Origin: Bacteroidota bacterium
GTDB lineage: Bacteria; Bacteroidota; Bacteroidia; Chitinophagales; Chitinophagaceae
Reading direction: 5' to 3'
Length of the DNA: 36,923 nucleotides
Assembly: GCA_013286485.1 (NCBI GenBank)
Contig: JABDFN010000009.1
Location: 1-36,923 of the forward strand
Shown here: one piece after another, positions 34,876 to 36,923 of the stretch
How positions within the stretch are numbered: position 1 is the stretch's first letter
How the letters are laid out: every line of letters begins with the position of its first letter
The notes under the pieces: generated by a model
What the model was told of the DNA's origin: nothing
The model's input: only the letters and a program-made list of their open reading frames with translations
Database searches by the model: none
Program-made: the position numbers and the translations under genes

Positions 34876-35010
34876 ATGTCAAAGAATTCTAAAAAGGTAA
34901 TAGTAGTTTATAGAAGTGCTAAAACGGGCGAATTCGTAAAAGAAAGGTTTGCGAAAGATCACCCAAGTACTACTATCAAGCAACATATTAAGGTTATCAA
35001 AAAAAAGTAA
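34876..35010 (+). CDS. Small conserved basic protein (YRSAKTGxF type)
   Basis: The 44-residue product MSKNSKKVIVVYRSAKTGEF, VKERFAKDHPSTTIKQHIKV, IKKK is lysine-rich. The YRSAKTGEFV...HPSTTIK pattern is found in many short proteins of diverse bacteria and phage, some mis-annotated as transporters. Its role is unknown; the strong basic charge would fit nucleic-acid binding. It is followed by a terminator, so it is a separate unit from the TIR cluster. Confidence 0.7.
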   Translation: MSKNSKKVIVVYRSAKTGEFVKERFAKDHPSTTIKQHIKVIKKK

Positions 35011-35026
35011 CTTAATAATATATAAG

Positions 35027-35065
35027 ACATCTACCGGGTACAGCTATCTGGTAGGTGATTTTTTC
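35027..35065 (+). terminator. Rho-independent terminator
   Basis: An 8-bp stem CATCTACC / GGTAGGTG with one G-T pair and a 14-base loop is followed by ATTTTTTC. It separates the small basic gene from the TIR cluster, so the cluster needs its own promoter in the short gap before 35083 or reads through. Confidence 0.65.
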
Positions 35066-35082
35066 ACTAAAATTCAATATGT

Positions 35083-35313
35083 ATGAACAAACAGTTACTT
35101 CAATTATTTCTAATCTTGCTAGCGGTTGTATTAATTTGGGCTATTGTCAATTCTGTTACAACCTCAAAGGAAAACCGACTGAATCTTTTTGTGGTGGTTC
35201 AGGGACCAATCAATAGTTACATCGAGGCTCGAATGACAATTGGAAAAATTGAGAGCGAGAATACCACTATTGGTGACAATAATTCAATTTTAAAACGAGA
35301 AAAAGATGTCTAA
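35083..35313 (+). CDS. Single-helix membrane protein with C-terminal GDNN motif
   Basis: The 76-residue protein has one N-terminal transmembrane helix (LLQLFLILLAVVLIWAIVNS), then about 45 soluble residues ending in ENTTIGDNNSILKREKDV. The same motif, SNNTVVGDNNEIV, occurs at the start of the TIR protein encoded by the next gene, whose ATG overlaps this gene by 8 bases. The shared GDNN element hints that the two interact or come from one duplicated module. The membrane anchor could place the TIR protein at the membrane. No family was recognised. Confidence 0.7.
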   Translation: MNKQLLQLFLILLAVVLIWAIVNSVTTSKENRLNLFVVVQGPINSYIEARMTIGKIESENTTIGDNNSILKREKDV

Positions 35314-36163
35314 GATTAATATACATTCTCTGCAAAGCAACAATACTGTTGTTGGGGATAACAATGAAATAGTTATGAGTACAAGTCATTACTCGCAAGA
35401 CGCACTTCTTAGGGATGAAGCGGATAGATTTAACCAACATAACATTGAAGCGAATTATTATATCGCTAGCGGGCATAAGAACTTTATTAATGAGTTAAGG
35501 CTTGAGTTGTTTAACTATTATACTGTCGAATCAAAAAGTATCTTTTTGGATCAGGTAAAGAAAGGGCTTATTAAGTACATAAAAGATTTTGAAGAAGAAG
35601 CACCAGATAATGATTTATCGGTTTTACGGAAGATGCTTATGTTCATAGATCAGGAAATAAATGAGCTCCCTAAAATTGTGCAAACAAATTCAATAACGAT
35701 GAAAGGTGGCCGTACTAAAGTTTTTATTAGCTATTCACAAAAAGACAGGTCATTCTTGGATGATTTGAAACGACATTTCAAATCTCTTGAAGATATTGTT
35801 GATTTTTGGGATGACAGCAGAATTGAACCAGGCCAAAAATGGAAAGAGGAAATCGAGTTAGCGATGAATGGCGCTGAAATTGCAATTTTGTTGATAAGCG
35901 CAGATTTTTATTGTTCTGATTTTATTAAAACAAATGAGTTGCCACGTCTACTTAAAAAAGCAAACGAAGAGGGCGCAACAATCCTATGTGTAATATTAAA
36001 GCCGTGTATGTTTGACGATTTTAAAGAAATAAATGTATATCAGGCAATAAATGATCCAAAGAAGTCGATATTAGCTTTGAATGAAGTGCAGAGAGAAGAA
36101 ATGTGGGTTTCATTAGTCACACAAGTTAAGAATATTGTAAACAATAAAGTAAATTCAAAATAA
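35306..36163 (+). CDS. TIR-domain protein, probable NADase effector
   Basis: Residues 1-25 of this 285-residue protein carry VVGDNNEIV, and residues 25-125 are helical. Residues 133-245 form a TIR (TIR_2/SEFIR-like) domain: TKVFISYSQKDRSFLDDLKR, VDFWDDSRIEPGQKWKEEIE, EIAILLISADFYCSDFIK, then TNELPRLL with the candidate catalytic Glu at 211. Bacterial TIR domains with this Glu usually cleave NAD+ upon infection and arrest the cell. It is the second gene of a forward cluster ending in an Abi-alpha-like gene. Its helical N-terminal region may sense the trigger. Roles in cluster and phage defence are inferred. Confidence 0.85.
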   Translation: MSKINIHSLQSNNTVVGDNNEIVMSTSHYSQDALLRDEADRFNQHNIEANYYIASGHKNFINELRLELFNYYTVESKSIFLDQVKKGLIKYIKDFEEEAPDNDLSVLRKMLMFIDQEINELPKIVQTNSITMKGGRTKVFISYSQKDRSFLDDLKRHFKSLEDIVDFWDDSRIEPGQKWKEEIELAMNGAEIAILLISADFYCSDFIKTNELPRLLKKANEEGATILCVILKPCMFDDFKEINVYQAINDPKKSILALNEVQREEMWVSLVTQVKNIVNNKVNSK

Positions 36164-36164
36164 T

Positions 36165-36401
36165 ATGGAGCTCGTTGGAAATTTTGAAGTAGATCGATTG
36201 CACTATTCTTTAATGAAAATCCAAGATAATTTTTTCAAATTATCAGTTCCAACTATGGGGACTGCAAAAAATGCCTTTCATACAGCACCTGATGTATCGG
36301 TGAGAGTAGATGGTGAAAAAATTGAAATTATTGGCTTGCCTACATATCATAATCAACGGGAGGATAAAATAATTTCAGAAATTCGACGACTAGTTTTTTA
36401 A
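36165..36401 (+). CDS. Small unknown protein of the TIR cluster
   Basis: The 78-residue protein starts one base after the TIR stop codon, so it is probably translationally coupled. It has a mix of beta and helix (VGNFEVDRLHYSLMKIQDNF, then VRVDGEKIEIIGLPTYHNQR). No signature or membrane segment was seen. It may be a regulator or inhibitor of the TIR protein; that is a guess from position only. Confidence 0.65.
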   Translation: MELVGNFEVDRLHYSLMKIQDNFFKLSVPTMGTAKNAFHTAPDVSVRVDGEKIEIIGLPTYHNQREDKIISEIRRLVF

Positions 36402-36403
36402 TT

Positions 36404-36688
36404 GTGAATAATAATTTTGAAGTGCCAATAGGTTGGGATAGAGTTGCAGTAGGATTTTGGAACACTATTGTAAAAGGAAAAGCATACTCTGTTTGGTATG
36501 TTTTAGCAAAATCAAACGAACTTCCGATTGATTTTGATAAGGTAAAATTTAAGAAGAGGCTAATTAAAAAGGAAAATAAAAAGTGGTGGTATTCATCTTC
36601 ATATAGAGATGGTTCAGTATCTATTTCTACGGGTGATCGTTATGAGGCAAGTTTACTTAAACACTTAATAAATAGATGGGAGGAATGA
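36404..36688 (+). CDS. Small aromatic-rich unknown protein of the TIR cluster
   Basis: The 94-residue protein starts at GTG 36404, two bases after the previous stop codon. It is rich in Trp and Tyr (IGWDRVAVGFWNTIVKGKAY, KKWWYSSSYRDGSVSI). No family was recognised. The last codons overlap the next start by 4 bases (ATGA), so it is coupled to the Abi-alpha-like gene. It could be a chaperone, inhibitor or sensor in this operon. Confidence 0.65.
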   Translation: MNNNFEVPIGWDRVAVGFWNTIVKGKAYSVWYVLAKSNELPIDFDKVKFKKRLIKKENKKWWYSSSYRDGSVSISTGDRYEASLLKHLINRWEE

Positions 36689-36923
36689 CAATGGAAAAGA
36701 AAATTGATATTACCTCTTCGGTATTAGAAAAAGGAATTGATGCGGCGAGAAGCTTTTTAGGTAAATTGATAATGCCAGCAGTAGAAGAAACTGGTTTATT
36801 GTTAAAGGATCAAGTCACGTTATGGAAGTTTAATAATCAAGTTAAAATATTAAACACGGCCAAACGGTATTGTGAAAAGAATAATATTTCTCCTAAGCAA
36901 ATTTCATTAAAGCTTCTCTGCCC
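36685..36923 (+). CDS. DUF4393 / Abi-alpha-like protein (3' partial)
   Basis: The frame starts at ATG 36685 (in-frame ATG 36691 is an alternative) and runs off the window. The visible start, ITSSVLEKGIDAARSFLGKL, IMPAVEETGLLLKDQVTLWK, FNNQVKILNTAKRYCEKNN and SPKQISLKLLCP, has the pattern of DUF4393/Abi_alpha proteins (a conserved P-x-x-E-x-G-x-L-L-x-D followed by a tryptophan/arginine-phenylalanine-asparagine turn). Abi-alpha members are linked to phage abortive infection. Only about 79 residues are seen, so the call rests on this N-terminal block. Confidence 0.65.
   Translation, partial: MTMEKKIDITSSVLEKGIDAARSFLGKLIMPAVEETGLLLKDQVTLWKFNNQVKILNTAKRYCEKNNISPKQISLKLLC

Follow-up and report, generated by a model that had tools for sequence, protein, structure and literature searches.

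A conserved Bacteroidota gene pair in which a small membrane protein and a putative SpbK-like TIR protein carry matched terminal motifs

In the TIR protein SpbK, an 18-residue linker joins a four-helix domain (residues 1-94) to a TIR NADase that forms filaments (residues 113-266); the protein is activated when the helical domain docks on the phage portal (PMC12847820). In BASS pairs, a motif lies at the C-terminus of a small protein with a membrane helix (Bell) and its twin lies at the N-terminus of an NLR, the two proteins being encoded by adjacent or overlapping genes (PMC7889193, describing Dyrka 2020). TIR domains occur among the BASS-associated effectors, and the same review of amyloid signalling poses as an open question whether bacterial signalling amyloids act in NLR-independent pathways (PMC7889193). 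The core tetrad of a further short motif, the RHIM, is (V/I)-Q-(V/I/L/C)-G (PMC9444067), and Abi-alpha aborts phage infection in Enterococcus faecalis (PMC6356687).

The window, by which we mean the whole stretch of DNA that was analysed (36,923 nucleotides), ends in five open reading frames that are co-directional and close to contiguous (Table 1). Their tight packing, with gaps of a few bases or overlaps, was as the original prediction had described it; genes 1 and 2 overlap by 8 nt, gene 5 overlaps gene 4 (ATGA), and gene 5 is incomplete because the contig stops at 36923. A terminator had also been proposed in front of the cluster, and a hairpin followed by a T-run does lie there, but with 1 terminator-like site found in the region against 1.2 expected, this hairpin alone is not above chance. 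Upstream of it are a gene judged MFS-transporter-like from reading alone, a gene for an isochorismatase (Pfam, 1e-35) and, between the latter and the hairpin, a gene for a 44-aa basic protein (34876-35010) that has no significant family match.

Table 1. Coordinates of the features at the end of the window
Feature	Position	Strand	Description
Terminator-like hairpin and T-run	35028..35057	+	13 pairs, then TTTTTT; parts the cluster from the upstream genes
Gene 1	35083..35313	+	76-aa membrane protein, single predicted helix, C-terminal motif
Gene 1 C-terminal motif	35227..35292	+	residues 49-70, ARMTIGKIESENTTIGDNNSIL
Gene 2	35306..36163	+	putative SpbK-like TIR protein, 285 aa
TIR N-terminal motif	35309..35374	+	residues 2-23, SKINIHSLQSNNTVVGDNNEIV
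Predicted four-helix domain of the TIR protein	35396..35665	+	residues 31-120; structure model
TIR domain	35714..36157	+	residues 137-284; Glu211 codon 35936-35938
Gene 3	36165..36401	+	78-aa orphan, outside the conserved unit
Gene 4	36404..36688	+	94-aa orphan, GTG start, outside the conserved unit
Gene 5	36676 or 36685..36923	+	partial Abi-alpha (PF14337)-type protein, N-terminal end only

The product of gene 2, originally described as a TIR protein, matches Pfam TIR_2 (2e-12) and, over its TIR part, the PADLOC ThsB/ThsB1 model (2.9e-19). A structure model built from three sequences (mean pLDDT 66) shows a low-confidence N-terminus (residues 1-29), four helices (31-51, 56-68, 74-98 and 105-120; pLDDT of the block 63-90, mostly about 80), a linker and then the TIR domain, which matches solved TIR domains including those of AbTir, PdTIR and SARM1. 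In a sampled search, in which the TIR protein or its profile was compared with genome contigs and with overlapping samples of 299, 396, 30, 298 and 130 genomes, six orthologues sharing the N-terminal helical region were found (loci L003, L004, L007, L008, L149 and L150); those of L003 and L007 are 47-51% identical to the window protein. The helical domain (residues 31-120) is conserved in the seven orthologues, counting that of the window, and Glu211, the candidate catalytic residue that the protein had been said to keep, is invariant in all seven. The candidate model PDC-S66 matches 7/7 of these proteins and the PADLOC spbK model one (L003, residues 54-161, 1.8e-4). Since the order of four helices, linker and TIR domain is that of SpbK, and given the PADLOC matches, the modelled window protein is best read as a probable SpbK-like TIR to which an N-terminal tag has been added. 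The same broad TIR family was also seen at L160 (1087-1962) and L161 (1063-1971), fused there to an N-terminal domain that appears by reading to be of a nucleoside-binding Rossmann type.

Gene 1 has the one predicted membrane helix that was attributed to it (residues 5-23), followed by a short spacer and a C-terminal motif. The original prediction carried the label 'GDNN' for this motif, which is indeed present, but did not spell out that there are two copies of it, one closing gene 1 and the other opening gene 2. In the window the two copies (end of the membrane protein / start of the TIR protein) read IGKIESENTTIGDNNSIL / INIHSLQSNNTVVGDNNEIV; the corresponding copies are ENVCGNGNVIGDNNFVTNT / IKNIDGTGNVFGDGNIVHNT in L003 and VGQVNGNANTIGTENKVEN / LGNITGNGNVIGDRNVVKN in L007. 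The motif is about 22 residues long, and Asn, Gly and branched residues are abundant in it. Local alignment of the two copies within a locus gave scores of 57 in the window, 70 in L003 and 56 in L007, none of which was reached by any of 2000 shuffles. Scoring of adjacent genes throughout the fetched loci (227 pairs; mean 19, sd 7) put the motif pairs at ranks 1, 3 and 4; rank 2 was a spurious-looking pair of open reading frames in repetitive DNA and rank 5 a split repeat protein. The true pairing was also the best of the six that are possible (183 vs 117-164), a weak test with so few pairings. The nucleotide sequences of the copies are dissimilar in the window and in L007, which argues against a recent duplication, and weakly similar in L003 (2/500 shuffles).

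No Pfam family matched the motif, and comparison of the motif peptides with solved structures gave no significant match; the nearest structures, beta-helix acyltransferases, would fit stacking in a beta-solenoid, without proving anything. The model of the TIR protein leaves the motif unstructured. When motif-like nucleotide patterns were searched in 199 and 395 genomes, no further pair was found among the matches inspected; these fell in unrelated genes, among them repeat proteins and a 59-aa open reading frame resembling a ribosomal protein, and in the 199-genome search the counts were near those of a backward control pattern. The motif is not diagnostic as a DNA pattern; its paired position alone is.

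The counterparts of gene 1 (L003, 7792-8019; L007, 1261-1491), both from other Bacteroidota, encode proteins of 75-76 aa with one membrane helix and the same layout, and are only 22-24% identical to the gene 1 product. Both genes lie directly upstream of the TIR gene, with an overlap of 19 nt in L003 and a gap of 3 nt in L007. Such an upstream gene accompanies all three TIR genes that carry the motif but none of the four motif-less orthologues (0/4 vs 3/3); in-frame stop codons are found upstream of the latter in L004, L008 and L150, and a COR-TIR gene in L149. In the tree, the TIR proteins that bear the motif group as a clade apart from those that lack it, which make up a second clade (support 97/94). 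Because the paired proteins make up a single clade, one gain or one loss may explain the distribution, and the co-occurrence does not count as independent evidence. No further example of the pair or of its parts was found in plasmids, phages or viral contigs. Overall, genes 1 and 2 are a conserved unit, present at three loci within one clade and plausibly new.

The surroundings of the orthologues differ from locus to locus. In L003 (2786-10624) the TIR pair lies between a gene for a TraD/TrwB-type coupling protein with a metallophosphoesterase gene on one side and a serine recombinase gene about 170 bp downstream on the other, flanks that suggest a mobile island. On the reverse strand of L149, the motif-less TIR gene follows a COR-A/COR-B-TIR (Roco-like) gene and overlaps by a few bases a downstream gene for a NACHT NTPase, a different, NLR-linked context of the same TIR family. 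The motif-less TIR gene of L008 (1507-3259) is followed 25 bp on by a gene for a putAbiC-type protein (PF16872) in which membrane segments are suggested by eye; these two genes, too, may be a defence pair.

The presence of the same motif on the TIR protein and on its membrane neighbour points to assembly of the two by way of matching tags. The explanation that we prefer, although we hold it to be about evenly balanced, is that the pair is a two-component module in which a homotypic tag links the membrane partner to a suicidal SpbK-like TIR NADase. In such a module, the TIR protein would use its four-helix domain to detect infection or to take up a signal, and the two tags would most likely bind by homotypic beta-strand stacking, as amyloid-signalling motif pairs do. 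The membrane protein, if its C-terminus is cytoplasmic, would thereby bring TIR protomers to the inner membrane, cluster them or nucleate them there; clustering would form active sites between TIR domains, and the clustered protein would deplete NAD+ and halt the infected cell. The residues flanking the gene 1 helix carry a net charge of +1 N-terminal to it and +1 to +2 C-terminal to it, an ambiguous topology with which the motif of gene 1 could also face the periplasm. More specifically, we put forward only tentatively, as somewhat doubtful, that the motif is amyloid-like and NLR-free, so that a minimal membrane protein nucleates the putative NADase through the matched terminal motifs.

Several other explanations of the pair were weighed against this nucleation. 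The motifs may serve as a static membrane tether held by strand pairing, with the four-helix domain alone sensing a phage protein, in the way that SpbK is activated by the portal, and no amyloid-like propagation taking place. The SpbK-like architecture and the presence of a single short motif on each protein are consistent with a tether, which would account for the pairing equally well; however, a tether has no obvious need for tags that resemble each other, and since their likeness favours homotypic stacking we regard it as credible but rather unlikely. Control of an antitoxin kind, in which the TIR motif is capped by the membrane protein and the enzyme stays inactive until loss of the partner during infection sets it free, would agree with the small upstream gene that overlaps the TIR gene at two of the three loci, a layout typical of toxin-antitoxin systems. 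Sister TIR proteins that have no motif nevertheless persist without a partner; absence of the partner therefore does not in general make the TIR toxic, and this explanation appears improbable. Finally, the genes abut or overlap and a weak residual DNA similarity is left in L003 (2/500 shuffles, as above), as might be expected if the likeness were a by-product of an ancestral duplication or frameshift through which the neighbouring gene acquired, at its end, a copy of the beginning of the TIR gene. Such an origin is extremely improbable in our judgement, for in the window and in L007 the proteins match strongly without similarity of the DNA, and selection has probably preserved the match through a long divergence.

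The broadest alternative is the original prediction itself, that all five genes form one new anti-phage operon. The packing of the genes is very tight, and gene 5 resembles Abi-alpha, a family for which abortive infection has been shown experimentally (PMC6356687). This likeness, already proposed for the last gene as DUF4393/Abi-alpha, holds through a relative: 40 residues of gene 5 are 48% identical to the beginning of a plasmid-encoded protein of Lactococcus garvieae, and that protein has an Abi_alpha (PF14337) match at 6e-13; the 78-aa fragment encoded by gene 5 gave no direct PF14337 match. The L. garvieae plasmid Abi_alpha gene (L087, 2712-3543), like gene 5, has small hypothetical genes before it. 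However, no relatives were detected for genes 3 and 4: neither had a match in 72,556 plasmids or in IMG/VR viral contigs, gene 4 gave weak partial matches only (E 0.002-0.004) when 249 same-order genomes were searched, and an unusable structure model (pLDDT 43), and gene 3 had no match in Pfam, PADLOC or NCBIfam. Neither these searches nor one with gene 5 in plasmids linked any of the three genes to the TIR gene. No other TIR orthologue found precedes counterparts of genes 3 and 4 or an Abi-alpha gene; the genes that follow are a recombinase gene in L003, a putAbiC gene in L008, a NACHT NTPase gene in L149 and unrelated genes in L007, and the contig of the window stops inside gene 5. Conserved synteny, on which the original prediction itself had made the idea depend, was found for genes 1 and 2 only. 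Since other genes lie downstream of the TIR orthologues found, and the collections searched held no relatives of genes 3 and 4, there is no support for a five-gene system; we judge it very improbable and treat genes 3 to 5 as local neighbours rather than as parts of the module. The interest that had been placed in the two small proteins between the TIR and Abi-alpha genes moves to the matched terminal motif. As to an existing name for the gene set, no named system with this set was found.

For the question of NLR-independent amyloid signalling, genes 1 and 2 offer a compact and testable candidate, with two genes, two motifs of about 22 residues and a simple expected readout, the loss of NAD+; the motif-less sister TIR proteins serve as natural controls. 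If the proposed nucleation is true, the pair would represent a membrane-gated abortive-infection system made of two genes, with a new motif family in Bacteroidota, and would show how an SpbK-like TIR can come under membrane control.

When the locus is compared with known systems, gene 5 resembles the beginning of an Abi-alpha-type protein (DUF4393, PF14337), but it is incomplete, and Abi-alpha is not associated with this TIR family at the other loci found. The TIR domain shows family similarity to Thoeris ThsB, SAVED-TIR and PDC-S66 (PADLOC); for Thoeris and other defence TIRs, however, the match is confined wholly or largely to the TIR part. No ThsA was found among the scanned genes beside the window TIR gene, where the contig stops 760 bp downstream, or noticed among the open reading frames beside the L003 and L007 pairs, and no SAVED/CD-NTase gene was seen near the TIR gene. 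With RHIM and BASS3/PP the motif shares a short hydrophobic stretch rich in Asn and Gly and a conserved G after a hydrophobic residue. Membership of the RHIM family was rejected, as the six motif copies read [NT]-[VT]-[IVF]-G in place of the RHIM tetrad. The likeness to SpbK of Bacillus subtilis ICEBs1 lies in the four-helix N-terminal domain, the linker and the C-terminal TIR domain with its catalytic Glu, and also in size (266 aa, against 256-261 aa in the motif-less sisters). However, SpbK is a single gene whose activator is the phage portal YonE, whereas in the paired clade the TIR protein bears an additional N-terminal motif and has a partner with a membrane helix, and the similarity in sequence is weak, as the single spbK match among the seven orthologues indicates. 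In comparison with Bell/NLR pairs of BASS, genes 1 and 2 come from Bacteroidota rather than mainly from filamentous Actinobacteria and Cyanobacteria, and there is no NLR, the N-terminal motif being carried by the TIR enzyme itself, without an NTPase; the gene geometry and the placement of the motif at the C-terminus of one protein and the N-terminus of the other are nevertheless the same.
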